From Sinomonas cyclohexanicum (GTDB taxonomy: Bacteria; Actinomycetota; Actinomycetes; Actinomycetales; Micrococcaceae), in the NCBI RefSeq assembly GCF_020886775.1, contig NZ_AP024525.1, positions 2,852,001 through 2,916,000 of the forward strand: a DNA stretch of 64,000 bases, written 5' to 3'. Positions 47,603 through 62,057 of this stretch are shown here, one piece after another. Under the pieces are notes generated by a model, which saw nothing but the letters and a program-made list of their open reading frames with translations, was not told the origin of the DNA and did no database searches. The translations under genes and the position numbers were made by a program. Every line of letters starts with the position of its first letter. The stretch's first letter is position 1.

Positions 47603-47614
47603 TCCTGAACTATG
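47603..47614. other. attL core (12 bp)
   Basis: TCCTGAACTATG is the left copy of the direct repeat that bounds the element. It is 89 bases beyond the last chromosomal gene start and 125 bases before the integrase. Only these 12 bases match exactly between the two ends. The rest of 47501-47738 holds no gene. Confidence 0.7.
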
Positions 47615-47725
47615 CGAACTGGGCTCACTGTGCGCTTCACTGTGTTTTCGCCGGTCTGACGCGCCTTTCGGGGCCTTACGTGAGACACGCTAGCACGGCA
47701 CAACGCTCGTGGTCCAGATATCGGA

Positions 47726-47731
47726 TAGACT
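47726..47731 (+). promoter_or_regulatory. -10 box of the integrase gene (leaderless)
   Basis: TAGACT ends seven bases before ATG 47739, with the same GATAGACTGG context as dapD. It supports ATG 47739 over the GTG at 47709. Confidence 0.5.
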
Positions 47732-47738
47732 GGCTGTC

Positions 47739-48641
47739 ATGAAGGCGAGCGAGACCCCGGACCTAGGCGTCCTCCTGCCGTCCTGGGTGCTCACACTCCG
47801 CGCCGAGCGCAAGAGCCCCGCAACGATCCGCACCTATACCGACGGCATCGGCGCGTTCCTCGCGTGGGCCGACACCACTGGCACGCCGGCCGTTCTCGAC
47901 CGCCGCACCGTCACCGCGTTCTGTGCTCACCTTGTGGACGAGGGCCGAGAGGGTGCCACTGTCCGCGCGCGTCAGCTCGCGCTGCGCCGATTCTCCGCAT
48001 GGCTCACGGAAGAGGGCGAGATCCCTCAGGACCGGCTCTTGGGCATCAAGCCGGCCAAGCTCGACCAGAAGGTGGTGGATCCCCTAACCGAGGACCAGCT
48101 CAAGGCCATGCTCAAGGCGTGCAGCGGATCTAGCTTCATGGACCGCCGGGACGAAGCCATGCTCAGGCTCATGGCCGAGACCGGGATGCGCGCCGGGGAG
48201 TGCGTGGCCCTCGAGGCAAGAGACCTCGACCTCATGGCCGGAACCGTCGTGATCCGCCGAGGCAAGGGCGGCAAGGGCCGCGTGGTCCCGTTCGGCCCGC
48301 AGACCGCTAGGGCCCTCGACCGCTACCGCCGCGCGAGGGCACAGCATCCCATGGCGGACACGGCCCCGTTCTGGCTCGCCGTCCGCAGCCGCAGCTTCGG
48401 TTACGACGGCCTCCGCAAGGCCCTTGTGACGCGCGCGAAAGCCGCGGGCATAGAAGGCTTCCACCCTCACCAGCTCCGCCACACGGCAGCCCACAGGTGG
48501 CTTGCCGCGGGCGGTTCCGAGGGCGGCCTCATGGCCGTCGCGGGCTGGTCCCGACCCGACATGCTCGTGCGCTACACCAAGGCCCGCGCCTCGGAGCGCG
48601 CCGCCACCGAAGCACGATCACTGAACCTAGGAGACCTGTGA
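47739..48641 (+). CDS. int: Tyrosine recombinase/integrase
   Basis: It would catalyse integration and excision of the element by strand exchange at att. The 300-residue protein has an N-terminal SAM-like core-binding domain (residues about 12-100) and a catalytic domain with Arg151 (ETGMRAGECVAL), a Lys-rich beta hairpin near 176, His244/Arg247 (HPHQLRHTA), Trp270 in the place of the second His, and nucleophile Tyr279 (LVRYTKARAS). It is XerC/D-like in size but sits beside attL. It reads toward the element interior. The GTGA overlap with the next gene implies coupling. Confidence 0.9.
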   Translation: MKASETPDLGVLLPSWVLTLRAERKSPATIRTYTDGIGAFLAWADTTGTPAVLDRRTVTAFCAHLVDEGREGATVRARQLALRRFSAWLTEEGEIPQDRLLGIKPAKLDQKVVDPLTEDQLKAMLKACSGSSFMDRRDEAMLRLMAETGMRAGECVALEARDLDLMAGTVVIRRGKGGKGRVVPFGPQTARALDRYRRARAQHPMADTAPFWLAVRSRSFGYDGLRKALVTRAKAAGIEGFHPHQLRHTAAHRWLAAGGSEGGLMAVAGWSRPDMLVRYTKARASERAATEARSLNLGDL

Positions 48642-48991
48642 GCAAGAAGACGGGGCGTATCCGGTGCGGCTCATGCCAGCGCGTCTTGGAAGATCCGGAC
48701 GCATATCGGAAACCCACCCGGGGAGAATTGTCCGATTATGACCGACTTCCGGATTCAATGGCAAAGGGCCGACAGCTGTATGAGCTGAGAAAGCCAAGCC
48801 CCATGTCCAGCACAGGGGACATGTGGCAGGACCCCACCGGGGAATGGTGGAGGGGCTGGCATTGCCGGTGTGGCCGGGCCTACGCCATAGCCGACGATGA
48901 GCTGGCGTTGCTGCGTGTGGAAGCAAAAAGCGACCGCGGCGAAGACCTGTTTCTGACAAACGCCCACCTGCTGCGGCCGACACGCCGATAA
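48638..48991 (+). CDS. Small Cys-rich (zinc-ribbon-like) protein
   Basis: The 117-residue protein starts with GTG inside the integrase stop. It has two Cys pairs, RCGSCQRV near the start and HCRCGRAY about residue 75, spaced as in a zinc ribbon, with a WRGWHC segment before the second pair. I do not recognise the family. Being coupled to the integrase, a role in excision or in regulation of the element is possible, but this is inference. Confidence 0.55.
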   Translation: MSKKTGRIRCGSCQRVLEDPDAYRKPTRGELSDYDRLPDSMAKGRQLYELRKPSPMSSTGDMWQDPTGEWWRGWHCRCGRAYAIADDELALLRVEAKSDRGEDLFLTNAHLLRPTRR

Positions 48992-49149
48992 AGGACGATA
49001 AAAGCGGTGTGCACGGAATGTCGTGTACGCTGTGAAATGTACTGAATACCGGATTCGGGGCCATCACGGTTCCCCGCCCGGCAGCATCGGACGGCATCTG
49101 CTGAGTGAGACGTCCCGCTTGATCCCACGGGGGTCGCGGGAGAACTCGT

Positions 49150-49470
49150 ATGCCAGTACCATCGACCGAACGTCGGCTCATGGCCCAGATCGCGGCCAAT
49201 GAATCGTGGGCTCAGACCGAGGACAGGTCAGCTCGCACCGCCCCAGCCCGCGCCGCGATGCTCGCCAAGTTCGAGCACGAGGCGGACCCCGAGGGACGGC
49301 TGCTCCCAGCCGAGCGGGCCCGCCGCGCCGAGCACCTCCGCAAGGCACACTTCCAGCGCCTCGCCCTCAAGTCCGCACAGTCGCGCCGCCGCGCGAAGGC
49401 GGCCACCGCGGCAGCCGAAGCGGCAGAGGCAGAGCTAGCCCAGCTCGAGGCCGGCGGTGACGCGAAGTAA
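49150..49470 (+). CDS. Small helical basic protein of the element
   Basis: The 106-residue protein is highly charged and largely alpha-helical (ERARRAEHLRKAHFQRLALK, then an Ala/Glu-rich helix AAAEAAEAELAQLEAG). I do not recognise it. It may bind nucleic acid. A 158-base gap precedes it and holds a GATCCCACGGGGGTCGCGGGAG dyad-like stretch but no gene. Its last 16 codons and stop lie in the 81-bp sequence duplicated by the following insertion sequence. Originally its TAA overlapped the ATG of the next gene (TAATG). Confidence 0.55.
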   Translation: MPVPSTERRLMAQIAANESWAQTEDRSARTAPARAAMLAKFEHEADPEGRLLPAERARRAEHLRKAHFQRLALKSAQSRRRAKAATAAAEAAEAELAQLEAGGDAK

Positions 49471-49503
49471 TGCGCACCGCTGACGCCGGGGCGATGGCCC
49501 CCA
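49423..49503 (+). repeat. Left copy of the 81-bp direct repeat flanking the IS1634-type element
   Basis: These 81 bases are identical to 51273-51353. They contain the end of the small helical gene and the beginning of the next gene, so they represent a long target duplication. Confidence 0.9.
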
Positions 49504-51272
49504 CCTGAGTTTGGTCATTTGCTTAGTGCCTGAGATTTCCCGGTGGTGAGGGCGTCGATGATGGCCTGCCGGTCGGGGTCGATGTGGGGCGCGATGGTCT
49601 GGGTGGTGCCGTTGGAGGCGACGGTGGCTGAGCGCAGGGGCCTGAGCTGGCGGACGATGTTGCGGATCGCGAGGCCGGTGCGGGTCTGGGCCTCGCGGGA
49701 GACTGCGAGGGCGGTGAAGACGATGGTCAGGTGGGCCTCGATCGCGTCGCGGGTGCGGACGAACATGGGTCGCGCGGCGAGGTCGGTCTTGGACATCCGG
49801 AAGGACTGCTCGACATGCCAGAGCTCGTGGTACGAGGCGATGACCTCGCCGGCGGGCATGAGGTGCGCGGGGATGTTGGTCACGTAGCCCTTGAGCCCGA
49901 CCAGGCGGCGGGCGCGGGCCAGGGCGGCTTCGTCCAGGGTGTGCCCGTCGCCGCTGGTCTTGACGAACCGCGGGGCGCGGGCGGCCTTCTCGCCGGCGAT
50001 GACCGCCCGGGCGCGGTCCTCCTGCAGTGTCAGGGTCTTGCCGTCCCGCACGGCCCGCTTGGCCGAGTAGGCCCACACGGCCCGCCAGGAGCCGGGGTGC
50101 GTCTCGGGGTCCCAGACGGGTTCGGCGCGCAGGAGCTCGTTGTTCTCGCTGCGCCGGCCGGTCCTGGGCGTGATGGTGTCGATGACCTGCGCGTCGGTGA
50201 ACGCGTCGCCGTGCCAGCGGAAGTGGGAGGCCAGGTCCAGCGGGGCCTTGACGGCGCGGGAGCCGACGATGAAGCGCAGGCCCGCCTCCTCGAGCGCGGT
50301 GAGGTTGGCCGCGGAGAGCATGCCGGCGTCGGCGACCACGACCATGTCCCCGATGCCATGCCTGTCCTGGAACTGCTTCACGATCGGGATGATCGTGGTC
50401 TGCTCGGCCCTGTTGCCCTCGTAGCAGCCGATCTCCAGCGGGAACCCTTCCCGGTCCACGAGCAGGCCGACGACGATCTGCGGGTCGACCCGGCGTTCCT
50501 TGGAGTAGCCGACCTTCCGCAGCCCGTCTTCCTTCTCGGCCTCGAAGTACAGGGTCGTCACGTCGTACAGGCACAGCGAGACATCGCCGCTGGCCGCGGC
50601 GTGCTCGAAGCACGCCCTGGCGATCTGGTCCCGGTAGCTGCCCCTGTGCGCGCGGGACAGGGTGCGCCGCATCGTCTTCTCGCTCGCCGGGCGCACGCCC
50701 AGGTCGCCCAGCACGCGGGCGGTGTCCAGGATGGAGGTCGGCTCCACGATCCGGGCGACCACCAGGTCCCGGAACACCTCGTCGGCGAGGGCGTCGAAGC
50801 CGAGGTCGTCGAACACCGCCGCGAGCGTGTCGAAGAGGACCCGTGAGGCGGTGGCGACCACCCGTGGCGGGGCAACCGCCGATCGCCCTGGCACCGGTGT
50901 CCCCGGGTTCTCGAAGAGCGCCGGCTCCCCGGGCGGGCCGATCAGTGCAGTCCTGGGCGCAGCAGGGGCCAGGCCCAAGTCGAGCTCGCCCTGGCCGGGG
51001 TCGTCCAGCAGCTCCCGCGCCCGCTCGACCAGGAGCCCGAGCTCAGCCTCGGTATGGGCCGAGCCGACGTGGGCCACGATCCGCCGCCGCCCGTCGACGG
51101 ACTCGGCGATCTGCACGGCCGTCGCCCCGGAGGCCGTCCGAACCCGCCGAATCCATGCCACAGCCACCACAGTAGAGCACCAATTAGTGCCTCAGAACCG
51201 CTCCCGCGACAGCGTTACCGCAGGTCAGCAGGCAGTCCTCTCGAAACCGACCGCAAAGTGACCAAACTCAGG
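49504..51272 (-). mobile_element. IS1634/IS1549-type insertion sequence
   Basis: The element is 1,769 bp with ends CCTGAGTTTGGTCA (left, 49504) and the matching complement TGACCAAACTCAGG (right, 51259-51272). One large transposase gene is present. Elements of this family are known to make long direct repeats of variable length at the target, and here the repeat is 81 bp. It appears intact. Confidence 0.88.
49515..51170 (-). CDS. IS1634-family transposase
   Basis: The 551-residue DDE transposase has features of the IS1634/IS4-group core: VSLCLYDVTTLYFE with the first Asp, MVVVADAGMLSAANL with the second, and HELWHVEQSFRMSKTDLAARPMFVRT, the YREK-like region containing the catalytic Glu. An N-terminal part (VRTASGATAVQIAESVDGRRRIVAHVGS) is typical of the family. 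No frameshift is present, so the gene is probably functional. It is transcribed opposite to the host element genes. Confidence 0.88.
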   Translation of the reverse strand: MVAVAWIRRVRTASGATAVQIAESVDGRRRIVAHVGSAHTEAELGLLVERARELLDDPGQGELDLGLAPAAPRTALIGPPGEPALFENPGTPVPGRSAVAPPRVVATASRVLFDTLAAVFDDLGFDALADEVFRDLVVARIVEPTSILDTARVLGDLGVRPASEKTMRRTLSRAHRGSYRDQIARACFEHAAASGDVSLCLYDVTTLYFEAEKEDGLRKVGYSKERRVDPQIVVGLLVDREGFPLEIGCYEGNRAEQTTIIPIVKQFQDRHGIGDMVVVADAGMLSAANLTALEEAGLRFIVGSRAVKAPLDLASHFRWHGDAFTDAQVIDTITPRTGRRSENNELLRAEPVWDPETHPGSWRAVWAYSAKRAVRDGKTLTLQEDRARAVIAGEKAARAPRFVKTSGDGHTLDEAALARARRLVGLKGYVTNIPAHLMPAGEVIASYHELWHVEQSFRMSKTDLAARPMFVRTRDAIEAHLTIVFTALAVSREAQTRTGLAIRNIVRQLRPLRSATVASNGTTQTIAPHIDPDRQAIIDALTTGKSQALSK

Positions 51273-51353
51273 GCAGAGGCAGAGCTAGCCCAGCTCGAGG
51301 CCGGCGGTGACGCGAAGTAATGCGCACCGCTGACGCCGGGGCGATGGCCCCCA
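51273..51353 (+). repeat. Right copy of the 81-bp direct repeat
   Basis: This copy carries the ATG of the downstream gene and re-creates the TAATG junction, so the downstream gene is intact despite the insertion. Confidence 0.9.
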
Positions 51354-51592
51354 GCAAGTTCGAACCCCTCAGCAAGGACGAGTGGCCCGGACTCATGACC
51401 GAGGCCGAGCGAGCCGCCATCGAGTCGATGCTCGAGGATGCCCGGCAGGCCGGCTACTGGGCCGGCTACCACGCCCGCACCGTTGAATGCGTGGCCGAGC
51501 ACGGCACTGTGCTCCGCGCGATCGACCAGGCCGCGCAGAAGTTCTACCTGCTCACGGCCGAGGACGCACACGCCAAGGCGGTGGGCGCATGA
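51320..51592 (+). CDS. Small protein upstream of the primase
   Basis: The 90-residue soluble protein has a helical middle (MTEAERAAIESMLEDARQAGYWAGYHARTVE) and no motif I recognise. Similar small helical proteins often precede primases in actinobacterial elements. Its ATG lies in the right direct repeat, and it has lost the upstream coupling gene because of the insertion. It overlaps the ATG used for the primase (ATGA at 51589). Confidence 0.55.
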   Translation: MRTADAGAMAPSKFEPLSKDEWPGLMTEAERAAIESMLEDARQAGYWAGYHARTVECVAEHGTVLRAIDQAAQKFYLLTAEDAHAKAVGA

Positions 51593-53039
51593 CGATCCAC
51601 GACACCTACCCACTCCCCGATGGCGCGGACACGTCATATGGTGCGCGGCCGACGCCTACGCCGACGAGAGCACGGCCGACGAGCTCGCCAGCGCCGAGAG
51701 GCAGCACCGCGGCCAGGCCCGCATGGCGTACCGGCTCGCGATGGCCAACGCCGGGCATCTCATGTACGTGCGCGGCATCGGCTGGCATGTTTGGGACGGC
51801 CAGCGGTGGGCCGAGGACGAGAAGGACGCGGCGAAGAATGCCGTCCTCGAGGTTCTCCGCGCCGCGCTGGCCGAGTCCCTGACCGACAAGGAGCTCCGGC
51901 CGGACGTGCGCCGTTGCGAGTCGGCATCCGGCATCAACGGCGTCCTCGACATCGCGTCCGCCCTTCCAGGACTCCGCGCCTCCATCGCCGAGCTCGACGC
52001 GGACCCATTCCTGATCAACTGTGCCAACGGGACGCTCGACCTCCGCACGCGCACCGTGCGCGAAGCCTCCCCAGCGGACAGGATCACGAAGCTGGCCCGC
52101 GGCGCATACGACCCGGCCGCCGACCGCACGGTCTGGGAGGCGTTCCTCGAGCGCATCCTCCCCGATGCGGCCGAACGGTCCTATCTCCAGCGCGTGATCG
52201 GGCAGGCAGCCTACGGCAGGGTGCGCGAGCACCTGTTCCCCGTGCTCACCGGCACCGGGCAGAACGGCAAGGGCACCACCTATGAGGCGATCCTCCATGC
52301 GCTCGGAGACTACGGGACCGTCGTGGACCCCGCCATGCTCATGGCCGGCGACAGGTCAGGCGGGCCCGAGATGATGACCCTGCTCGGGGCGCGTCTCGTG
52401 ATCGGCTCCGAGACCGAGGAGGGCCGCAAGCTCGACGCCGCGACCATGAAGCGGCTCACGGGCGGCGACACGCTCACGGCCCGGCGCCTCTACCAGGAGC
52501 CCGTGACGTGGGCGCCGACGCACCAGCTCGTCTACGTCACGAACCACCTTCCCCAGGTCAAGGGCAATGACCCGGCAGTGTGGCGGCGTCTGCGCATCGT
52601 CCCGTTCGATGTGGTGATCCCGGACTCGGAGAAGGACGGCAAGCTCCCCGAGAGGCTCCAGCTCGCCGCGGACGCGATTCTCACGTGGGCGATTGAAGGA
52701 TGGTTCGACTACGAGGACCGCGGCGGCATGGATGAACCGGAGAACGTCCTCAACGCGACCGACAAATACCAGACCGAATCCGACGCCGTGAAGCGGTTCA
52801 CAAACGACCAAGACGAATGCGTGCTAAACCCCCACGTTCACGCCGGCACCCGCGATCTGCACATGGCGTAGCAGGCCTGGGCAGCCCTTGACGGGGCCGA
52901 GCCAATGAGCGAGAAGGCGTTCGCCAAGGAGCTGGATCGGCTCGGATACCCGACACGCAGGAGCAACGGCCGGACGTTCCGGCAGGGCATCGCACTGGCG
53001 GTCAAGGACGAGGGAGTGCAGCGTAGTGCAGCGTTTTAG
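51589..53039 (+). pseudogene. Phage/plasmid primase-helicase (P4/D5-like), broken by a TAG and an apparent frameshift
   Basis: The middle of the protein is well preserved: a D5-N-like region (MAYRLAMANAGHLMYVRGIG and onward) and an SF3 helicase core with Walker A FPVLTGTGQNGKGTTYE, Walker B-like ARLVIGSETEEG, and VYVTNHLPQVKGNDPAVWRR. The expected ATG (51589, coupled to the previous gene) reads MTIHDTYPLPDGADTSYG and then leaves the frame. The core is in another frame from about 51650, consistent with two extra bases in the GCGCGG stretch near 51642. At 52869 a TAG interrupts, but the same frame continues with AWAALDGAEPMSEKAFAKEL to 53039, the normal C-terminal domain. It is likely non-functional unless the stop is read through and a later start is used. 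Confidence 0.8.
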
Positions 53040-53129
53040 CAAACCTCCACACGAGGAAGTTACTAGGGAAAGTTTCCGAAAACCCTGCACTACCCTGCAC
53101 TGCCCCGGAATCATGCGGGAGGCGGCCCG

Positions 53130-53315
53130 GTGAAGCTCGCCAAGATCAAGGCCCTCGCATACGTGTGGAACCTCGGGAAGAGCGACGAGACACCCGGCAT
53201 CGCGCTGCGCACCCGCGACAGGTTCATAGCCCACATGAGCTACGACGAAGCCCGAGCCATCGCCGAAACCATCCTCGACCTTTGCGACCAGCACAACCAG
53301 GAGGCGACCCGATGA
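53130..53315 (+). CDS. Mini-protein, paralog family member 1
   Basis: The 61-residue protein starts with GTG after GGGAGG. Its core (PGIALRTRDRFIAHMSYDEA, then RAIAETILDLCDQHNQE) is closely similar to the proteins at 53506 and 53706. The predicted fold is two strands and a helix. It is unknown to me. It is the first gene of a run of seven overlapping genes. Confidence 0.6.
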   Translation: MKLAKIKALAYVWNLGKSDETPGIALRTRDRFIAHMSYDEARAIAETILDLCDQHNQEATR

Positions 53316-53509
53316 GCACCGAGCAGGAGACCGAGCGCGCGCAGATCCCGCCCCTCGGGTGGACCATCCCGCGATGGCTGGAGCCCTTCAACCGCACCGA
53401 GCTCGCCTACCTGGCCGAGCGCCAGGACATGCGCTGCCGCGAGCTTCGGAACATCATCACCCGCCTTCGCGAAGAGCTCCGCCGCGCCGAACAGGAGCCC
53501 ACGAAATGA
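53312..53509 (+). CDS. Mini-protein with a basic C-terminal helix
   Basis: The 65-residue protein begins with ATG overlapping the previous stop (ATGA). A proline/tryptophan-rich start (PPLGWTIPRWLEPFNRTELA) is followed by a charged helix (MRCRELRNIITRLREELRRAE). I do not recognise the family, and it could bind nucleic acid. Confidence 0.5.
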   Translation: MSTEQETERAQIPPLGWTIPRWLEPFNRTELAYLAERQDMRCRELRNIITRLREELRRAEQEPTK

Positions 53510-53709
53510 GCTACACGCACCGCCGGCCGGTGACCGCGGACCACTACGTCTGGGGCCGCAACGAGCCCACCCCCCAGCCCGGCATCGCCATCAAACGCGG
53601 CGGATACATCGTGGCACACCTCGGCTACGACGACGCGAGGAGCCTCGCCGATTCCATCCATGACCTCGTCGACGAACACGAGACCGAAGAACAGGAGGCG
53701 GCGCATTGA
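53506..53709 (+). CDS. Mini-protein, paralog family member 2
   Basis: This is a 67-residue protein. The core PGIAIKRGGYIVAHLGYDDA / RSLADSIHDLVDEHETEE aligns with member 1 without gaps and with about half of the positions identical. It starts with ATG overlapping the previous stop. It ends in a TTG-overlap with member 3. Confidence 0.6.
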   Translation: MSYTHRRPVTADHYVWGRNEPTPQPGIAIKRGGYIVAHLGYDDARSLADSIHDLVDEHETEEQEAAH

Positions 53710-53936
53710 GCGGCTACGTGCTCCGCTGGGTCATCCGCCGGGACCGCTGGGACCGCCACCTCGAGGACTCCCGCACCGCGACCGCACGCCCCGCGATCGG
53801 ACCCGATGGTGAACCGGGAGTGGCGATCCTCACCTCCGGCCTTGCCCGGGTGACTCTCACCCTCGATGCCGCATACACCCTGGCCGGACAGCTCGCGAGA
53901 GTCATCGACGACATGGCCGAGCGGGAGGCCCAGTGA
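53706..53936 (+). CDS. Mini-protein, paralog family member 3
   Basis: This 76-residue protein starts with TTG inside the stop of member 2. It is the most diverged member: PGVAILTSGLARVTLTLDAA / YTLAGQLARVIDDMAERE follows the same pattern of PG-V/I-A, strand, strand, helix. It lacks the His and Asp pattern of the others in part. Confidence 0.55.
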   Translation: MSGYVLRWVIRRDRWDRHLEDSRTATARPAIGPDGEPGVAILTSGLARVTLTLDAAYTLAGQLARVIDDMAEREAQ

Positions 53937-54232
53937 GCATCCGCAGAACCGCCCGCACGGCCAAGGCCACGCCCGTGGTCCCGGAGAGCGTCGCTGATGG
54001 CTGTGCGGCCGTCGTGTGCCCCATCTGCGGCGACCTCCACCACTATGGCGCCGCCCAGCTCCAGCCCGTCCCCATCCGCCCCGGCCAGACCCGCACGGTC
54101 ACATGCGTCAGGGCGCGCACCCTCGCCGCCCAGCGCCGATCCCTCGACGCGATGCGGGAGCTCGTGTGGTCCGGCTACGGCAGCGGACGGTTCGCCATCA
54201 AGTTCACGCATCAACCAAAGGAGAAAGCATGA
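53933..54232 (+). CDS. Small protein with a CPICG metal-binding knuckle
   Basis: The 99-residue protein starts with GTG (GTGA overlap). It contains VVCPICGDLHHYG, a zinc-knuckle-like Cys pair followed by His residues, and one later Cys (VTCVRARTL). A short basic end follows. It could be a nucleic-acid-binding protein of the element. The family is unknown. Confidence 0.55.
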   Translation: MSIRRTARTAKATPVVPESVADGCAAVVCPICGDLHHYGAAQLQPVPIRPGQTRTVTCVRARTLAAQRRSLDAMRELVWSGYGSGRFAIKFTHQPKEKA

Positions 54233-54390
54233 CCAGCATCCAGAAGGGCCGCGACTTGTTCGCCGCCCGCCATCCCAACGGCCAGCCCGAGACCGAGGAC
54301 ACCGACCCGGGCAAGGCCGGGACCGTCCAATCCGGCCGCGACCTCTTCGCCAAGTTCCACCCCACCACTCAGAAGGAGAATGACCGATGA
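54229..54390 (+). CDS. 53-residue protein with an internal duplication
   Basis: The sequence GRDLFAARHP (residues 7-16) recurs as GRDLFAKFHP (residues 36-45). Such duplicated peptides are often binding motifs for a partner protein. It starts with ATG overlapping the previous stop, after AAAGGAGAAAGC. No family is recognised. Confidence 0.5.
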   Translation: MTSIQKGRDLFAARHPNGQPETEDTDPGKAGTVQSGRDLFAKFHPTTQKENDR

Positions 54391-55142: not shown

Positions 55143-55156
55143 GGACACACGCTGCC

Positions 55157-55183
55157 CGCCCCGGAGCCAAGCGTTCCGGGGCG
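55157..55183 (+). terminator. Hairpin before the HNH gene
   Basis: CGCCCCGGA (55157-55165) pairs with TCCGGGGCG (55175-55183), flanked by further G/C pairs. It probably ends the run of small genes or separates it from the HNH gene, which has its own ribosome-binding site (GAAAGGGA). Confidence 0.6.
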
Positions 55184-55213
55184 CGGCAGCCCAACACAGG
55201 GAAAGGGACCAGC

Positions 55214-55522
55214 ATGGCGACCAGTCGCACAGGCACCACGCGATGGCTCAAGGTCAGGGCCCAGGCACTCAGGCTAGCCCGGCTCAACGGCGTCACGCAC
55301 TGCATGTTCTGCCGCGTCGAGCTCGACTACAAGCAAGGACGGACACCTCGGAGCGCCGAGGTCGACCATCTCGTGCCTCACTCCCGAGGAGGCGAAGACG
55401 TCCTTGAGAACTGCGCGGTAATCTGCCGCCGCTGCAACCAGTCGAAGGGCAACCGCGCCGCGCCCAGCCAGGTCACCGTACTGGCAGCCAAGCCGCTGAA
55501 GGTCAGCCGGCGGTGGTCGTGA
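55214..55522 (+). CDS. HNH endonuclease
   Basis: The 102-residue nuclease has a zinc Cys pair (HCMFCRVEL), the HNH core EVDHLVPHSRGGEDVLENCAVICRRCNQSKGNR, with catalytic DH and the second Cys pair, and a basic tail. In many cos phages an HNH protein lies next to the terminase genes and is needed for cos cutting. Here it is 130 bases before the terminase small subunit gene, which fits that role. ATG 55214 follows GAAAGGGA. Confidence 0.85.
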   Translation: MATSRTGTTRWLKVRAQALRLARLNGVTHCMFCRVELDYKQGRTPRSAEVDHLVPHSRGGEDVLENCAVICRRCNQSKGNRAAPSQVTVLAAKPLKVSRRWS

Positions 55523-55652
55523 CAACTGAGACACCCACCCCCGGTTACCCTCCCGTGGCCCTGTCCTCGCTCCCTCGGCCCAGCGGGATCGGTATCCCTC
55601 CGGAAGCCGGATCAATCGACCTATTGACGCATCAAACAGAAAGGAGTGGGCG
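55523..55652 (+). other. Gene-free gap between HNH nuclease and terS: possible packaging (cos) site
   Basis: No gene is seen. The gap contains CACCCCCGGTTACC and TTGACGCATCAAAC, with AGAAAGGAG (a ribosome-binding site) just before terS. In HNH-type cos phages the cos site is usually in this position. This is inference from position only. Confidence 0.3.
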
Positions 55653-55997
55653 ATGACTGCCCCAGATGTACCCTCAGGGCTCCGAGCACCCGGCCGGAAG
55701 CTCTGGAAAGCGGTTGTCGACGACTATGAGCGGGGGGAGCACGAGCTCGTGGTCCTCCTCGAGGCGGCCCGGACGGTGGACGCGCTGGATGCCCTCGAGG
55801 CGATCGTCAGGACCGAGGGCGTCACGAACGTGTCGCCGCAGGGAGTGAGGGCCCATCCTGCCCTGGTCGAGGCGCGGAACCAACGCGTGACGCTGGCCAA
55901 GCTTGTGGCCTCGTTGCGGATCCCGCTGGACGACGCCGAGGCCGTGGGCCGCACCCAACAGCGCGTGGGCGTCCGTGCAGTCTCGGGCCTGAAGTGA
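55653..55997 (+). CDS. terS: Phage terminase small subunit, P27 family
   Basis: The small terminase subunit recognises DNA for packaging. The 114-residue protein has the P27 start (PSGLRAPGRKLWKAVVDDY, about residues 7-25), the helical middle (HELVVLLEAARTVDALDALE) and the region (VEARNQRVTLAKLVASLRIPLD) common in actinophage TerS. No large-subunit gene follows, only two small genes and a terminator. It overlaps the next gene by four bases (GTGA). Confidence 0.85.
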   Translation: MTAPDVPSGLRAPGRKLWKAVVDDYERGEHELVVLLEAARTVDALDALEAIVRTEGVTNVSPQGVRAHPALVEARNQRVTLAKLVASLRIPLDDAEAVGRTQQRVGVRAVSGLK

Positions 55998-56203
55998 AGC
56001 GCCGGCGTCAGGAGCCATCAAACGCGATCCCGGAGCACCTGCGGGTCGGCTCGTCGCTGCAGTTGGCCTCGTTCGATGAATGGCTCCGTCAGCGTCTGGC
56101 ATTCATGTCCGAGGTGGGCCGTGACGGGCTCCTCGCGCTCGGGACGAGCCCCGTTGAGTGGGTTATCGAGTGTGTCGAGGTCCGCAAGGCGGTGAAGGGA
56201 TGA
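55994..56203 (+). CDS. Small protein after terS
   Basis: The 69-residue protein starts with GTG in the terS stop. It is helical and basic at the start (MKRRRQEPSNAIPEHLRVG), with a Trp-containing middle (FDEWLRQRLAFMSEVGR). No family is recognised. Co-translation with terS suggests a packaging or capsid-redirecting role, a guess. Confidence 0.5.
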   Translation: MKRRRQEPSNAIPEHLRVGSSLQLASFDEWLRQRLAFMSEVGRDGLLALGTSPVEWVIECVEVRKAVKG

Positions 56204-56454
56204 GGCGCCGTCGGCCGGCACTCCCGGCACCCCTGGACTTCGAGCAGGCGCTCCCCGAGTTCGTCGATGACCTCTCTGAGCCCTACCCGGTGCGGCGGGC
56301 GCGGTGGGATGCGTGGATGGTCGGCTGGGAGGAGCTGGACGCCTCGGTGAAGGCTTGGTACGCGGTCAAGGGCATCGAGGAGCCGCCGGAGGATGCGCTG
56401 GACCGTATCCGCCTCAGACCGATGCAGCCGTTCGACGGGTACGACGGCGTCTAG
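56200..56454 (+). CDS. Small acidic protein after terS
   Basis: The 84-residue protein starts with ATG overlapping the previous stop. It is acidic with many Trp (RWDAWMVGWEELDASVKAWYA). It is unknown to me and is the last gene of the terS operon before a strong terminator. Confidence 0.5.
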   Translation: MRRRRPALPAPLDFEQALPEFVDDLSEPYPVRRARWDAWMVGWEELDASVKAWYAVKGIEEPPEDALDRIRLRPMQPFDGYDGV

Positions 56455-56459
56455 GACAG

Positions 56460-56487
56460 CCCCCGGAACCAGGAATGGTTCCGGGGG
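56460..56487 (+). terminator. Terminator of the terS operon
   Basis: CCCCCGGAACC (56460-56470) pairs perfectly with GGTTCCGGGGG (56477-56487), followed by CCTCTGTCGTTGTC. It ends the rightward packaging-type operon before the accessory module. Confidence 0.85.
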
Positions 56488-56599
56488 CCTCTGTCGTTGT
56501 CGCTTAGGCGGGCCAGTACGGCCCGCCCCAAGCATGGGTAGTAGAATCGCTTGTTCGTTCCTGATTTACTAGCACCGACAGCAACCTAAAGGGGGAGTC

Positions 56600-56818
56600 A
56601 TGCCAAGGACGCGTAGAACCCAACGGAGGCGTGCGGCGGCCTTCCGTGCAGCTGGGAGCATGTTGGACCTGTCCGGACGGTCAACGGCTACTATCATCTC
56701 GGGGTTTGTGACTGCGCGCCGCTCAACGCCTGGTGACTGGTATCAGGTTGGTCGCGACATCACAGTCGCCATGGGACGGCAGGGAAAGACCCTCAGCGCT
56801 AAGAAGAGTGGCTTCTGA
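56600..56818 (+). CDS. Small basic protein of the accessory module
   Basis: The 72-residue protein starts MPRTRRTQRRRAAAFRAAGS after GGGGGAG. It has a basic N-terminus and no recognised domain. The local base composition is clearly lower in GC than the rest of the element, suggesting separate acquisition. It overlaps the start of the DUF2335 gene. Confidence 0.45.
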   Translation: MPRTRRTQRRRAAAFRAAGSMLDLSGRSTATIISGFVTARRSTPGDWYQVGRDITVAMGRQGKTLSAKKSGF

Positions 56819-57251
56819 CATCGAGAGGGTCAATGATGACCCTCAGCCTGAAGGCCGAGTCGATGGGTACTTCCAGCCAGAGCTGGACGCAGGATCGCCG
56901 CAGCAGATCTTCGCATATGAGTACAGGCACAGCGGCCCGCTTCCTTCAGCCGCAGACCTCGCGGCATATAAGGCGATCGACCCCGAGCTACCTCGTGAAA
57001 TCCTTGAGATGGCCAAGCGAGAACAGAGCCATCGGCATCAGATGGACCGGGATGAGTTGCGCGAAGGCGTTTCCGTCACGAAACGTGGGCAGAGCTTGGG
57101 CTTTTGGATTGCCGTCGTCGTCATGGCAGTTGCCGTTGTGCTCGGACTAGCCGGCCAACCATGGGTCGCTGGCCTGCTTGGGACAGTTGATCTAGTAGCG
57201 CTGGTGACCGTATTTGTGCTGGGACGAAGCGAACGAAAGCCGGAACAGTGA
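56808..57251 (+). CDS. DUF2335 membrane protein
   Basis: The 147-residue protein has the DUF2335 signature (HSGPLPSAADLAAYKAIDPE, then REILEMAKREQSHRHQMDRD, about residues 45-85). Two membrane helices follow (LGFWIAVVVMAVAVVLGLAG and LLGTVDLVALVTVFVLG). DUF2335 proteins are frequent cargo of phage-like and mobile elements. Their function is unknown, and roles in superinfection or defence are only suspected. The start is GTG 56808. Confidence 0.75.
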   Translation: MASDIERVNDDPQPEGRVDGYFQPELDAGSPQQIFAYEYRHSGPLPSAADLAAYKAIDPELPREILEMAKREQSHRHQMDRDELREGVSVTKRGQSLGFWIAVVVMAVAVVLGLAGQPWVAGLLGTVDLVALVTVFVLGRSERKPEQ

Positions 57252-57288
57252 TTGTGTCTGCAACCTCCCGCGCCAACGTCATCCTCTC

Positions 57289-57588
57289 CTAATCCCGCCC
57301 GAGCCATTGCGGCTCGATCGCGCGGCGCTGGACCCTCGAGGCGTCCACCCAGAACTCTGTCGCGGCCTCGAAATACTCTTTGGGCCAGAGCACCTGCACC
57401 CGTACCCGGTCATGTGTCCAAGCCAGGGCGAACCCGCGCTTGTACGCCTCGCCGCCCTCGTCGGTTGGCACGTTCACCCAGACCGGGCGGGCCTTGGCCG
57501 GCCGTGTGACGTTCCCTGAGGGCTCGGGAGCGGATAGCGGCCGCGGCTCGCGTGTGAGGGCCACGGGGGCGGCATGCGCTGTCTCCAT
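57289..57588 (-). CDS. Hypothetical protein of the accessory module
   Basis: The 99-residue protein reads leftward. Its second half looks folded (PVWVNVPTDEGGEAYKRGFA, VQVLWPKEYFEAATEFWVDA), while the first 30 residues are low complexity. No family is recognised. It is on the opposite strand to the DUF2335 gene, with 37 bases between the converging stops. Confidence 0.5.
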   Translation of the reverse strand: METAHAAPVALTREPRPLSAPEPSGNVTRPAKARPVWVNVPTDEGGEAYKRGFALAWTHDRVRVQVLWPKEYFEAATEFWVDASRVQRRAIEPQWLGRD

Positions 57589-57627
57589 GCCAGCAGTGTG
57601 CGCCTGGGGTCCGACAGAGGCCAGCGG

Positions 57628-57942
57628 CTAGGCCCGCTCGCCTCTCGCCTTCCCTAGTTCGACCTCGGCAACGCGCCGAGCCTCGGCTACGCTCACCCTC
57701 TGTCCGCGGCGGCTGGCCGCCTCGATGAGCTTGAGTGCGATTGAATCCACGGTGTCTTCAGGGCCGAACGGGACCGACACGGCTAGCGTGGCCGCAGCAC
57801 TCACGGGACGCTGTTGTTTGGCGCGTCTCCGCTTCCTCTTGACGACGCCCCAGACGACCAGGCCGACGAGCCCTATCGTAAGTGGCCATGCAAGCCACGG
57901 GACGTATCGGAACAGAATGGTAATCCACACCAGCACGGCCAC
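57628..57942 (-). CDS. Small two-helix membrane protein
   Basis: The 104-residue protein starts with GTG and has two hydrophobic helices (LVWITILFRYVPWLAWP, LTIGLVGLVVWGVV). A basic stretch (KRKRRRAKQQR) and a C-terminal helical domain (ALKLIEAASRRGQRVSVAEARRVAEVEL) follow. It is of unknown function, possibly holin-like by layout, but no known holin motif is present. The start region is 192 bases from the lipoprotein gene. Confidence 0.5.
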   Translation of the reverse strand: MAVLVWITILFRYVPWLAWPLTIGLVGLVVWGVVKRKRRRAKQQRPVSAAATLAVSVPFGPEDTVDSIALKLIEAASRRGQRVSVAEARRVAEVELGKARGERA

Positions 57943-58121
57943 GGGAACGAAAATCCAGCCCAGGAGGTTGCTGTTTCTGCCGGATCGTCAGGATTGCCAT
58001 GCTTGGAGCGTAGGCGAGCAGACTGACAAACGACAGCCCGCGACGAACCCACGAGGTCGTGCAGCGCCTCGCGTCGGCGCGGGCATGTGCTGCCCCATCT
58101 AGGCGAGCCGCGCCCGGTGGC

Positions 58122-58127
58122 TAACAT
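58122..58127 (+). promoter_or_regulatory. -10 box of the lipoprotein gene (leaderless)
   Basis: TAACAT ends seven bases before ATG 58135, the same spacing as at dapD and the integrase gene. Confidence 0.45.
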
Positions 58128-58134
58128 GGGCAGC

Positions 58135-58719
58135 ATGGTCCGCCGCCGCATTTGGTCCGTCGCTGCCCTCTGCCTCGCGCTAACCGGATGCTCGGGAGGA
58201 CCAGCGCCTGGCATGCCGACGTTCCCGCCGCCTACTCCCACCGACTCCCACGCAAAGCTCGCGACCGTGGGCGACCCCATTACCGTGGACTACGGCGGAC
58301 AGCGCATCGAGGTAACCGTTTCCGATCTGAAGTACCTGAAGCAGGGGAAGAGCGGATCGGGAGTGCTGTTCAATGTGAGCCTAAGGAACCTTTCGGATCA
58401 GCCGTACCGCTTGAAATACGGTGAGTTCATGGCGGCCAATCTGCTCTCGGGCGGCGGTCCGCTGAGTTTTGATGATCGGCATCCGATACTTCCATTGCCC
58501 GGCTTTGACTTCACGCAGTATGGCAAGCCTCTCCCATATGTGGGAGTCGTTGGCCCGATGCAGACGGTTTCGGGGCTTGTCTGGCTTGAAGGCCCATCCG
58601 GGGACGACAAGACGGATATTCTCTACATGCCCGGGGCCAACGCCGACTACAGCACCAAGAACGCTCAGGGGACGTACACGCCGGACGATTTCAGCGTGTA
58701 CGCAGTGTGGCCAGCCTGA
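58135..58719 (+). CDS. Putative lipoprotein with a DUF4352-like beta domain
   Basis: The 194-residue protein has a short signal with lipobox LTGC (Cys about residue 19), a proline-rich linker, and a beta-sandwich-like domain (TVDYGGQRIEVTVSDLKYLK, VLFNVSLRNLSDQPYRLKYGEF, QTVSGLVWLEGPSGDDK) of the DUF4352/TRP-like type. Surface proteins of this type in mobile elements may affect phage adsorption. That is a guess. ATG 58135 is chosen because of the -10 box; an ATG three codons upstream is possible. Confidence 0.6.
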   Translation: MVRRRIWSVAALCLALTGCSGGPAPGMPTFPPPTPTDSHAKLATVGDPITVDYGGQRIEVTVSDLKYLKQGKSGSGVLFNVSLRNLSDQPYRLKYGEFMAANLLSGGGPLSFDDRHPILPLPGFDFTQYGKPLPYVGVVGPMQTVSGLVWLEGPSGDDKTDILYMPGANADYSTKNAQGTYTPDDFSVYAVWPA

Positions 58720-59141
58720 GGAGGCCCACGGCCCGCCCCTGTGACCGGGCACGAGCAGGTCAAAGGCGGTCAGGGACTCACGGGGCGGTGTTTTCCTGCC
58801 ATGCGACCTCCCGCGGGATCCAGAGCCGGAGGACGTCCTCGAGATCGCCCTTGAGCACGTCGGCGCCTGCGCTGGTGGCCCCACGGCCGGGCGTGGTGAG
58901 CTCCTTTCTAGGGGAGTGAGCGAGTGCGCGGTTGACGAAGGGTGCGATGTTGGCTTCGAGCCAGTCGCCGGCTTCGTCGGGCGCATTCCTTCCTCCCCAG
59001 CGATCGATCGCGACGTGCGCCAAGGGGCGCTGGCGGTCGAGTTCCACGTCGATGCGGAGGTGCCCGGACGGGACGGGGATCCGCCAGTGGGTTTCGTGCT
59101 TGACGGCACCGAGGCCGGCCAGGAGCTGGTCAAGTCCTTTT

Positions 59142-60525
59142 GAGTGGTGTATGTGCTCGGTGATCCCTCGGTGGGTTATGCGGTGAGGGTGTGGAGCTCG
59201 GCGGTGGGGTCCTCCTCTTCGGGGTCGGGTTCGCCGACGCGGCGTGCGTGGGTGAGGGCGTCGAGGCCGAAGTAGCGGCGCTGTTCGGCCCATTCGTCGT
59301 GCTGCTCGGCCAGTACGGCGCCGACGAGGCGGATGATGGAGTCCCGGTCGGGGAAGATGCCCACGACGTCGGTGCGCCGGCGGATCTCGCGGTTGAGCCG
59401 CTCGTTGGGGTTGTTCGACCAGATCTGGCGCCAGATGGACTTCGGGAATGCGGTGAACGCCAGGATCTCCTCGCGGGCGTCCTCGAGGTGGGCGAAGGCC
59501 TTGGGGAGCTTGTGCTCGAGGGTCTCCAGGACGCGGTCGAACTGGGCGTGCACGGCCTCGGCGTCGGGCTGGTCGAAGACGGTGCTCAGGAGCGTCTTGA
59601 CCCAGGGCCAGGAGCTCTTGGGCGTGGTGGACATGAGGTTGGCGGCGTAGTGGGTGCGGCAGCGCTGCCAGGCGGCGCCGGGCAGCGTCGCCCCCGTCGC
59701 GGCGACCAGACCGGCGTGGGCGTCGGAGGTGACGAGCTTGACCCCGGTCAGGCCCCGGGCGACGAGGTCGCGGAAGAACCCCAGCCAGCCGGCTCCGTCC
59801 TCGGCGGAGCTGACCTGCAGGCCAAGGACTTCGCGGTAGCCCTCGGCGTTGACCCCCGTGGCGACCAGGACCGCGACCTTGACCACACGCCCGCCCTCGC
59901 GCACCCGCATGGTCAGCGCGTCCGCGGCGACGAAAGTGTATGGGCCCGCATCCAGGGGCCGGGTGCGGAAGGCCTCGACCTGGGCGTCGAGGTCCTTGGC
60001 CATCTCCGAGACCTGGGACTTGGACAGGCCGGTGATCCCGAGGGTCTGGACGAGTTTCTCCATCCGCCTCGTGGAGACGCCCAGGAGGTAGCAGTTGGCC
60101 ACCACGGTGGTCAGGGCTGCCTCGGCACGGCGGCGCCGCTCCAGCAGCCAGTCCGGGAAGTACGACCCGGCCCGCAGCTTCGGGATCGCGACGTCGATCG
60201 TGCCGGCGCGGGTGTCGAAGTCACGGTGCCGGTACCCGTTGCGCCGGTTCACGCGCTCCGGGCTGGCGGTGCCGTAGGAGGCTCCGCAGACCGCGTCGGC
60301 GTCTGCGGAGAGCAGTGCGTTGACGAACGTCCTCATCATCTCCCGCAGCAGGTCCGGAGAGGCCTGGGCCAGATGCTCTTCGAGGAAACGGGCAGGATCG
60401 ATACTGTTGGGTGCGACGGTCATCGCGGCCGTCCTTTCGAGTCGAGGTAGAAGACTTCTCGAAGGATCACGCGGTGACCGTCCTCGTCCTACGACGACAC
60501 GCTCACCGGGAGCCGTACACCACTC
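59142..60525 (-). mobile_element. IS256-family insertion sequence
   Basis: The element has ends GAGTGGTGTA (59142) and TACACCACTC (ending 60525) and a complete transposase gene. The length of about 1.38 kb is normal for the family. No 8-bp target duplication is visible (59134-59141 and 60526-60533 differ), suggesting a deletion at one side after insertion. Confidence 0.85.
59176..60423 (-). CDS. IS256-family transposase (mutator type)
   Basis: The 415-residue protein has the family start (LREMMRTFVNALLSADADAV), the core (YTFVAADALTMRVREGGRVV with first Asp; LVTSDAHAGLVAATGATLPG with the second), the CxxH box WQRCRTHYAANLM and SNNPNERLNREIRRRTDVVG with the catalytic Glu. It is full length without frameshift. 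Confidence 0.92.
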   Translation of the reverse strand: MTVAPNSIDPARFLEEHLAQASPDLLREMMRTFVNALLSADADAVCGASYGTASPERVNRRNGYRHRDFDTRAGTIDVAIPKLRAGSYFPDWLLERRRRAEAALTTVVANCYLLGVSTRRMEKLVQTLGITGLSKSQVSEMAKDLDAQVEAFRTRPLDAGPYTFVAADALTMRVREGGRVVKVAVLVATGVNAEGYREVLGLQVSSAEDGAGWLGFFRDLVARGLTGVKLVTSDAHAGLVAATGATLPGAAWQRCRTHYAANLMSTTPKSSWPWVKTLLSTVFDQPDAEAVHAQFDRVLETLEHKLPKAFAHLEDAREEILAFTAFPKSIWRQIWSNNPNERLNREIRRRTDVVGIFPDRDSIIRLVGAVLAEQHDEWAEQRRYFGLDALTHARRVGEPDPEEEDPTAELHTLTA

Positions 60526-60616
60526 TGCCGGACGCTACTCAGGAGCTCAGTTAGTTCGGCGGTGTTGTTCATTTGCGGACTCCAATCTGGACATGGTTGA
60601 TCCGGCGTTTAGGGAG

Positions 60617-60772
60617 CTAGTGGTTATCCGAGAAGTGCAGTTCGATAGGGCGAACGTCGATATTGATCCGTGTGTGTTTGCCGCCGTCGCGCTCGGTGAT
60701 TGTTGCGGGCAGCTCGATCCGCTCGCCGCACTCGGAGCAGATCAGGACGCGGACTGTCTCTTTGGATTCCAT
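60617..60772 (-). CDS. 51-residue Cys-pair protein
   Basis: It is not obvious from long open frames because of its size. The leftward frame from ATG 60772 reads MESKETVRVLICSECGERIE, followed by a beta-strand pattern and a stop at 60617. CSECG resembles one half of a zinc ribbon, and a single CxxC may pair with another chain. It is upstream of the split gene in the same direction, with a 44-base gap. No family is recognised. Confidence 0.5.
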   Translation of the reverse strand: MESKETVRVLICSECGERIELPATITERDGGKHTRINIDVRPIELHFSDNH

Positions 60773-61138
60773 GCCGTCAATCCTCGCACCCGGGCACCTT
60801 CCGAGTTCAAGCCGCGTGGACAGCGGGGGCCCTACGGCTCGCCTTTGCTTGACCCCGGCCCCAAACTCCCGCCGCCCCCGTCTCCGCTCAACGACATTCG
60901 CCCACGACGACCGGACCCGGCCCGGTTCGGGACGCGTCTACGTGTGGACCTAGGCCGGTGATCAGTCGGGACCTCACGACGGCGGCACGTCGTGTTCGGT
61001 GGAGATTGTGAGCCGCGGCCCTCTGGGTACGTGGGAGGGTCAGTAACACGCGAGCGGCGCTCGGAGCGCCCAACCGTGACCGAGGGGGACGGCCGCGGTT
61101 GAGCGGTCCCAGCGCCCCCGTGGGGGCGTGGAAGCCGG
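60773..61138. other. Gene-free region with small hairpins
   Basis: I see no convincing gene on either strand in these 366 bases. Short dyads such as GGCGCTCGGAGCGCC (about 61050) and GCGCCCCCGTGGGGGCG (about 61112) are present and may end the leftward operon or separate it from the 51-residue gene. Confidence 0.5.
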
Positions 61139-61228
61139 CTATGCGGGTGTGACCGCCTCGAGGATGACGCGCAGGAGCCCGGCCAGAGCGACGGCCGCGA
61201 GGACCAGCGTGGGCGTGTAGCGGTTCAC
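61139..61228 (-). CDS. 29-residue membrane peptide
   Basis: GTG 61228 overlaps the stop of the preceding peptide gene (GTGA). The product is almost a single hydrophobic helix (TLVLAAVALAGLLRVILEAV). It is coupled to the two genes upstream. It could be a small membrane effector or holin-like peptide, but its length makes it uncertain that it is real. Confidence 0.4.
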   Translation of the reverse strand: MNRYTPTLVLAAVALAGLLRVILEAVTPA

Positions 61229-61338
61229 GAGGCGGTCCAACCCGGCACGAGCCACGGCAGGACCGGGAACAGGACCATCGGGGCCATCAAGGTCAGCCAG
61301 ATGACGAGCACAAGCAGGTTCACGGGAACGTCTCGCAT
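61225..61338 (-). CDS. 37-residue membrane peptide
   Basis: ATG 61338 overlaps the stop of the 179-residue gene (TGATG). The sequence MRDVPVNLLVLVIWLTLMAP and its continuation form one hydrophobic helix with a short tail. The tight overlaps on both sides argue for translation. Confidence 0.45.
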   Translation of the reverse strand: MRDVPVNLLVLVIWLTLMAPMVLFPVLPWLVPGWTAS

Positions 61339-61877
61339 CAGAGCTCACCGCCGATCGCGTCGGCCACGGGGAACGCCTCGCCGAGGTGCGCGTCCTCGAA
61401 CTGGTGGCCGTCCGTGTGTCGGGTGAGGATCCAGCGCCGGGATGCCGCGATGAGCGACTGGCCGAGGGCAAAGGCCTGCGAGGGTGTGAGCTGTGGGTCT
61501 TGGCCCTCGTCGCCGCCGCGGATGACGGGCCAGAACACGACCGATCGGCGCTCGATGCTGTACATGGTGTCGATGAGCCAGCCGTCGCCTTCGATCTGCG
61601 GCCCGTCGAAGTGCGAGATTTCCCCGTCCATGTCCTCGGCGGGCGTGAAGCCTGCGGGGACGTCCTCGAACGGGACCAGCTCGGCTGGGAAGAACGTGCG
61701 CACGATCCCGGAGTCGAGGGCGACGGCGATGAGTCCGTTGTCCTCCTGGCCGGACTCGCCGGTGACGACGGTCCCGCGCTGGCCCACGAGATAGGCCCGG
61801 GTCTCAGTCGTGAACTCATCCGAGTGGACCACCAGCACCCGCTGGCCGAGGGGGAATGTGGGGGTAGGCTTGTTCAT
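61338..61877 (-). CDS. Unknown soluble protein, first gene of the right-end leftward operon
   Basis: The 179-residue acidic protein begins with a small beta-barrel-like part (QRVLVVHSDEFTTETRAYLVG, GTVVTGESGQEDNGLIAVAL, about residues 12-65). A second domain follows (IEGDGWLIDTMYSIERRSVV, TPSQAFALGQSLIAASRRWI). I do not recognise it. Its mRNA leader holds a nested hairpin and a stem that covers the ribosome-binding site, so translation may be regulated. It is followed by two overlapping membrane-peptide genes. Confidence 0.6.
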   Translation of the reverse strand: MNKPTPTFPLGQRVLVVHSDEFTTETRAYLVGQRGTVVTGESGQEDNGLIAVALDSGIVRTFFPAELVPFEDVPAGFTPAEDMDGEISHFDGPQIEGDGWLIDTMYSIERRSVVFWPVIRGGDEGQDPQLTPSQAFALGQSLIAASRRWILTRHTDGHQFEDAHLGEAFPVADAIGGEL

Positions 61878-61962
61878 CGGTTCGGCCTCTCAACTAGGCC
61901 TTGGACCGTAGGCCCCGGTCCGGTGTTTCCAGCACCGCCGGGGCCGCCTTTGTCGGTCCAAG
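61878..61962 (-). promoter_or_regulatory. Structured mRNA leader with a sequestered ribosome-binding site
   Basis: In the leftward mRNA, CTTGGACCG and CGGTCCAAG close a long stem that contains GGCCCCGG/CCGGGGCC and a GGTG-N7-CACC tip (61900-61962). Directly after it GGCCT and AGGCC can pair, which hides the GAGAGG ribosome-binding site eight bases before ATG 61877. This suggests translational control. The mechanism is inferred. Confidence 0.5.
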
Positions 61963-62040
61963 ATATTACGCCCCACAACGCTCCAAACCGATCCCAACAC
62001 CTACGGGGTAACCCGTGATCCTGCACAATGCTCAGCCGCC

Positions 62041-62046
62041 TAGACT
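62041..62046 (+). promoter_or_regulatory. -10 box for xseA supplied by the element end
   Basis: TAGACT lies eight bases before the xseA ATG and mostly outside the 12-bp att core, so in the present arrangement the -10 element comes from the integrated DNA. Confidence 0.4.
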
Positions 62047-62057
62047 CCTGAACTATG
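62046..62057. other. attR core (12 bp) covering the xseA start codon
   Basis: TCCTGAACTATG is the right copy of the repeat, and its last three bases are the xseA ATG. Excision would place the chromosomal sequence now left of attL directly before xseA. Confidence 0.7.

Follow-up and report, generated by a model that had tools for sequence, protein, structure and literature searches.

If a chromosomal element encodes an integrase, an HNH nuclease and a small terminase subunit (TerS) but neither a large terminase subunit (TerL) nor a capsid, is it a phage satellite or what is left of a prophage? The question is raised by positions 47603-62057 of a 64,000-nucleotide stretch of Sinomonas cyclohexanicum DNA (the window; contig NZ_AP024525.1, positions 2,852,001 to 2,916,000), where an element of 14,443 bp, including two insertion sequence (IS) copies, lies in a genome of 4.41 Mb. 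We find it very probable that this element is an integrated phage satellite of Sinomonas resembling the phage-inducible chromosomal islands (PICIs). The original prediction, made from the sequence alone, had read it in the same way, and the reading draws its support from 15 of 15 related terS loci without a terL-portal-capsid operon and from seven phages in which terL is present.

The predicted boundaries were borne out. The longest word common to both flanks is the 12-bp TCCTGAACTATG, a direct repeat that encloses the element at an insertion point upstream of xseA. In all 14 other Sinomonas genomes compared this site is empty, with the upstream-gene arm adjacent to the xseA arm (the six most distant genomes each leave about 0.2 kb unaligned where the arms join), and one of these empty sites (L036) retains an intact single core. 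The element is inserted site-specifically at xseA. Without its IS copies it measures about 11 kb, in line with the 11.3 kb first estimated, and its G+C content is 0.675, against 0.687 in the left flank and 0.732 in the right.

The element encodes an integrase, a primase with an adjoining iteron-type repeat, an HNH nuclease and a TerS, and is kin to a lineage of similar elements. The integrase, the primase-helicase (interrupted, as discussed below), the run of tiny overlapping genes and the HNH nuclease named in the original prediction were all recovered (Table 1); its terS was confirmed as such by a PHROG profile, and the P27 label given to it was not reproduced by Pfam. No large terminase or capsid gene was found, in keeping with the prediction: scanned with Pfam and PHROG, the window proteins examined gave no family of the TerL, portal, capsid or tail type, and blastx of the element against eight TerL, six portal, three capsid and three tape-measure proteins gave no match. 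No scanned window protein matched a lytic gene, although no search was aimed at these, and no Rfam family reaches its gathering score within the element.

The arrangement that would mark a deleted prophage had been set out beforehand, i.e., terS running on into terL, portal and capsid genes in close relatives. When TerS was searched in 395 genomes of the family, relatives were found in 32; of the 34 places other than the window, we examined 15, which are the best scoring minus one that is near-identical to another. These loci come from at least eight genera other than that of the window, and their TerS are 42-77% identical to the window TerS, whereas phage TerS reach about 32-35% at best. By gene calls (made with a home-made script), blastx, Pfam and PHROGs, terS continues into terL, portal and capsid genes in none of the 15. 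The same panel of 20 proteins, applied by blastx to the 15 loci and the window element, matched only a tape-measure gene in locus L098; in the controls it found TerL in nine of nine loci, in eight of them through a TerL that was not their own. Nineteen larger neighbors scanned with Pfam comprised cargo or host genes, eight genes without a family, and the L098 tape measure, and PHROGs detected no packaging or virion family in ten more proteins (from L084, L087, L088, L091, L092, L096 and L097), one of which had already been in the Pfam scan. What surrounds terS in these loci is small, replication or unassigned genes, with a recombinase upstream in 13 of 15 (exceptions, L087 and L090) and an excisionase-like (xis-like) gene in nine. 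The TerL profiles PF03354 and phrog_9 each matched in none of 18 genomes carrying these elements; the two do not see every TerL, because both missed that of a resident prophage.

Eight of the 38 phage records with a TerS match were read as controls. In the seven full-size phages (Hum25, Bauer, Footloose, Dulcita, OhShagHennessy, prophiGD21-1 and Aziz) terL comes next, at most 0.4 kb downstream, and the eighth, Alyssa1 (11 kb), has no terL and itself looks satellite-like. Because no terL was found after terS in the 15 loci and one is present in the seven phages, the element is best placed in a satellite lineage and not among freshly deleted prophages. A temperate siphophage that had lost the structural genes after terS would also leave an integrase, a primase, an HNH nuclease and a TerS, all of which occur in temperate phages; decay does show in the IS insertions and in the interrupted primase, and one relative (L018) has tail-fiber-like pieces after HNH. 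But the same layout, free of structural genes, recurs in all the examined loci and genera (the L098 tape measure excepted), the satellite TerS stand closer to the window TerS (60-76% identical in eight that were aligned) than any phage TerS does, and a TerS tree of 16 satellite and eight phage rows needs a single label change to separate the two kinds, at support of 66/78 only. A deleted prophage is, on this evidence, very improbable.

The satellite reading gains a noncoding counterpart in a conserved motif, 19 bp long with consensus CTGGATGAATCGRCCTATT, which precedes terS and follows the gene for HNH or for F1, a 251-aa marker protein. The motif, scoring 14-19, is present in all ten elements (that of the window included) with a TerS identity of 60% or more, and is at chance score in five of five elements with a more distant TerS. 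It beats all 200 shuffles in each of the ten, a test that flatters the motif because the consensus was derived from these same elements. A relative found independently, by TerS protein search only (L138), matches at 18 of 19 positions; an IS separates motif and terS in an eleventh element (G350), with the motif about 1.5 kb ahead of the gene, which is no independent test since it was located by genome scan. That scan returned 21 of 395 genomes, against one for a reversed control; because only seven of the 21 sites are within satellites, the other 14 having neither F1 nor a satellite terS within the 3 kb examined, the pattern alone is not diagnostic. Four motif-region stretches matched on two IMG/VR contigs were followed as a helper lead and dropped, as no satellite gene lies nearby.

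The position of the motif suggests a cos or TerS site. Its spacing from terS, which is 42-62 bp in eight of ten elements, would equally suit a promoter or operator of the terS operon, and the element would remain a satellite in that case; but the spacing reaches 179 bp in L090 and 213 bp in L091, and the motif tracks the TerS subfamily, with which a promoter is still compatible. We consider the regulatory role somewhat unlikely. The conservation of terS and motif as one unit also bears on whether the element could be an actinobacterial integrative and conjugative or integrative mobilizable element that acquired HNH and terS. Integrase and replication genes are common to such elements, but the longest called gene other than the integrase, primase and transposases is 251 aa, and no unassigned called gene is big enough for FtsK/TraB or a relaxase (no model search was aimed at either). 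We regard this origin as extremely improbable.

A replication module is among the features of PICIs, and between the primase and the tiny genes are inverted iteron doublets (53015-53033 and 53083-53101). Their inverted-repeat score of 26 compares with a maximum of 18 among 300 shuffles and is the top of 252 stretches of the element, the runner-up scoring 20. Inspection by eye 3' of the replication gene in seven relatives revealed comparable inverted doublets in L023 and L087, partial doublets in L092 and L130, repeats of a different pattern in L085, and no iteron repeats in L086 and L088. The origins of Staphylococcus aureus pathogenicity islands (SaPIs) are iteron-flanked, and the sequence supports a candidate iteron-type origin adjoining the primase here.

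The lineage can be followed through other genes. F1 was found in ten of the 395 genomes (two of them weak or doubtful), was matched by none of 50,697 phage records, and was not seen in IMG/VR using one or two short peptide patterns; the right-end accessory gene likewise had no match in phages. F1 elements share a similar operon, with homologues of several of the tiny genes and with HNH 3' of F1 in L018, L021 and L022, and F1 has a weak profile match (probability 25%) to the same-slot protein of the terS loci. Two further candidates, L025 and L026, were dropped, being very weak matches with an internal stop that resemble ordinary chromosome. The Sinomonas gamaensis element (L018:6706-9571) carries HNH, the tail-fiber-like pieces and a RelA/SpoT-domain defense candidate, PDC-S33. 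L018 and L088 adjoin a YajQ-like gene (label from sequence), where an integration hotspot may lie.

The original prediction had envisaged a family at xseA; in this it did not hold. The integrase clade of the window has five copies in four of 395 genomes (64-71% identical in G000, G011, G136 and G142), and four of the five sit after the principal sigma factor gene, a label assigned from sequence, with only the window copy at xseA. A second element of this clade in the same genome (L125:5830-9015, L006:16217-16867) has TIR, head-protease-like and 1061-aa tape-measure (SLT domain) genes, and no terminase was seen in it; the G011 copy has a single, isolated capsid gene of the HK97 type. At L082:9315-10538, a Sinomonas element at the sigma-factor site shows a lone HK97-type major capsid gene. 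A defense-family scan of ten proteins gave five matches, all in relatives (AbiD, TIR-TM, the RelA/SpoT-type PDC-S33, PD-T4-5 and PDC-M03B). Across the order, the TerS model matched 23 of 307 genomes, five of them from the family of the window; in ten new loci examined of 24 places, about 1.5 kb each side, TerL had no match; in two loci terS is followed by a Hum25-like tape-measure gene, and one shows a weak capsid match.

Single virion parts recur among viral contigs. In IMG/VR, relatives were found on fourteen contigs (script and PHROGs annotation), where the lack of a gene says little because several contigs are short. Four carry a tape-measure gene, i.e., L138, L139 (before terS), L145 (a weak profile match) and L150 (by blastp only); a protease is present in L145 and L151 and, by profile, a connector in L148. 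L145 has a 111-bp terminal repeat and can for this reason be read as a circular form of 10,582 bp. A tape-measure gene after TerS recurs in L138, L145, L150, L158, L160 and L098; in three of these (L138, L158 and L160) the tape measure shares 53-58% identity with its counterpart in Arthrobacter phage Hum25. Because the L138 protein is 58% identical to the Hum25 one, Hum25-like phages are the best helper lead.

Several observations weigh against a satellite. Three of the fourteen IMG/VR relatives (L146, L148 and L151) have a capsid gene, and one, L141, has terL after terS (857-3073: TerS, a small gene, HNH and TerL, beyond which come genes in reverse orientation and a serine integrase, with no portal seen). 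No helper phage came to light, as the motif occurs in no phage record; region searches gave two chance-level matches, then none. The resident prophage of the same genome (L127), which has its own terS and terL (sequence labels), portal and capsid and supplies the only match of the portal profile PF04860 in the 18 genomes, was rejected as parent or helper, there being no protein match to the window element in 20 kb; the sole match from this region is a weak 80-aa one to the L098 tape measure. Neither xis nor a divergent repressor is recognizable in the window copy, in contrast to many relatives. Three window proteins scanned for defense families had no match. Finally, an in-frame stop, to which the original prediction made no reference, interrupts the primase at 52869-52871, and the two IS copies, together about 3 kb, suggest decay as the stop does. 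Because of these lesions the window copy is probably damaged, and by now it could be reliant on others or unable to move. The perfect 82-bp direct repeats on either side of the first IS are unusually long, resembling a long target duplication.

Table 1. Features of the Sinomonas element, in window positions
Feature	Position	Strand	Evidence
attL core TCCTGAACTATG	47603-47614		12-bp exact repeat; single copy at L036 empty site
Tyrosine integrase, 300 aa	47739-48641	+	Pfam PF00589 (Phage_integrase) 3.4e-27
Cysteine-rich protein, 116 aa	48641-48991	+	Open frame; no Pfam or PHROG family above cut-off
Early gene, 106 aa, conserved in integrase clade	49150-49470	+	phrog_2842 2.5e-08; 82% identical counterpart in second Sinomonas element
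First IS	49422-51353		Between direct repeats
Transposase of first IS	49515-51170	-	DDE_Tnp_1 3.1e-15
90-aa protein	51320-51592	+	Open frame only
D5-type primase-helicase frame, precise start unsettled	51438-53039	+	D5_N 7.1e-35; PHROG primase 1.8e-97
Candidate origin, inverted iteron doublets with AT-richer spacer between	53009-53107		36-nt inverted repeat, 83%
Six tiny genes	53130-54390	+	Open frames; consecutive 4-bp overlaps
F1 marker protein, 251 aa	54387-55142	+	No Pfam family; marks 10/395 family genomes
HNH endonuclease, 102 aa	55214-55522	+	PF01844 2.9e-12
Conserved noncoding motif, candidate cos/TerS site	55607-55625	+	17/19 to consensus; 46 bp before terS
TerS, 114 aa	55653-55997	+	phrog_1496 6.7e-16
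69-aa protein 3' of terS	55994-56203	+	Open frame only
Small partner gene 3' of terS, 84 aa	56200-56454	+	36% match from equivalent L138 gene; RWDAW-like pattern shared, on inspection by eye, with C4 proteins from other elements
Accessory membrane protein, DUF2335	56733-57251	+	PF10097 2.6e-12
Accessory gene	57289-57588	-	No Pfam match
Accessory gene	57628-57942	-	No Pfam match
Accessory gene	58132-58719	+	No Pfam match; lipoprotein-like by eye
Second IS, Mutator-family transposase	59176-60423	-	PF00872 1.8e-141
Right-end accessory gene, 179 aa	61338-61877	-	62% over 82 aa vs second Sinomonas element
attR core TCCTGAACTATG	62046-62057		At xseA start; flank and empty-site comparison

How close does this bring the element to known satellites? 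As PMC6092414 outlines them, PICIs are about 15 kb and have a primase or rep with a conserved origin layout, terS in some cases, unique genes, an integrase beside a regulator with xis opposed, a unique att site never used by prophages, and phage-dependent induction, interference and packaging. The element has the size, the replication module, terS and element-unique genes (F1 and the right-end gene); its integrase and early genes lie on one strand, which departs from the opposed order. It resembles the Gram-positive PICIs and SaPIs of that account in its size, integrase, primase, TerS and accessory genes and in lacking structural genes, and many of its relatives share with them xis and an opposite-strand integrase. 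It differs in having HNH beside TerS and, presumably, its own cos-like site, in its copy-specific want of a repressor and xis, and in having a helper candidate only. Freedom from structural genes holds in the window element and fails in L098 (tape measure) and G011 (capsid).

Capsid-forming PICIs share HNH and TerS with the element, but those described in PMC10690885 bring in addition their own TerL, portal, protease, capsid and connectors; the search of the window element turned up none of these. Candidate Mycobacterium PICIs are likewise integrated actinobacterial elements with some phage genes; in the description given by PMC10654092 they are defined by an integrase and a major capsid, a pairing absent from the window and present in the G011 element. 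The Streptomyces satellites Mulch and Flayer, also from actinomycetes, are presented in PMC10690885 as parasites of virulent phages with both terminase subunits, portal and capsid and no primase homologues. The Mycolicibacterium phage Alyssa1 (OR387110, 11,078 bp) is, like the window element, small, with an integrase (here of the serine type) and with TerS in the absence of TerL, but it has capsid, connector and tape-measure genes; its TerS is 27% identical to the window TerS, and its other matches are weak (integrase 22-28% to L092 and L084). We know of no link between the Vibrio phage-inducible chromosomal island-like elements (PLEs) and this lineage. In the account of PMC12987554, PLE11 swaps out the tape-measure protein of its helper, giving chimeric tails, and putative tmp genes are shown in capsid-forming PICIs; some relatives may resemble PLE11 in this respect, although the window element has no tape-measure gene.

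PMC10023795 goes no further than to suggest a satellite nature for small elements of actinobacteria. The kind is already known, because the Mycobacterium candidates (PMC10654092) and Streptomyces satellites (PMC10690885) are published, at least as these sources present them. Of the suggestion that the family is undescribed, what stands is narrower: no description of this particular family was found in the literature searched, the survey of de Sousa et al. lying outside its scope. We therefore treat the element as an apparently undescribed PICI-like variant and stop short of classing it as an established PICI. New here are the motif before TerS, the candidate iteron-type origin after the primase, and the relatives with single virion parts, one on a circular contig.

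The most likely mechanism for such an element would run as follows. Growth of a helper phage would cause it to leave the chromosome, and the excised form would replicate from its own origin. Its TerS would bind the conserved site that closely precedes the terS gene and, together with HNH, steer the helper TerL, so that satellite DNA is cut and packaged into helper particles. Origin and site are the steps with support in the sequence, and induction, helper TerL use and transfer are what we infer around them.

A broader proposal, on which we are close to evenly divided and which we offer tentatively, is that one satellite class, built around TerS and its small partner gene (with the cognate site in one subfamily), extends across Micrococcales and probably further. 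Its members would differ in the virion part that they have swapped in (tape measure, capsid, protease, connector, or HNH and terL), each replacing one piece of the helper particle. If this is true, a Hum25-like tape measure would determine the tail of whichever particle carries its satellite, as demonstrated up to now for a Vibrio PLE. Satellites shape gene exchange between phages and bacteria, and those of actinobacteria are thinly described, although many soil bacteria besides this one harbor elements related to that of the window. This lineage would offer a compact packaging cassette (HNH, site and TerS), a readable origin and, in several members, defense-type cargo, and the three tape-measure genes related to that of Hum25 give a pointer to an actual helper phage, in soil bacteria that are harmless.

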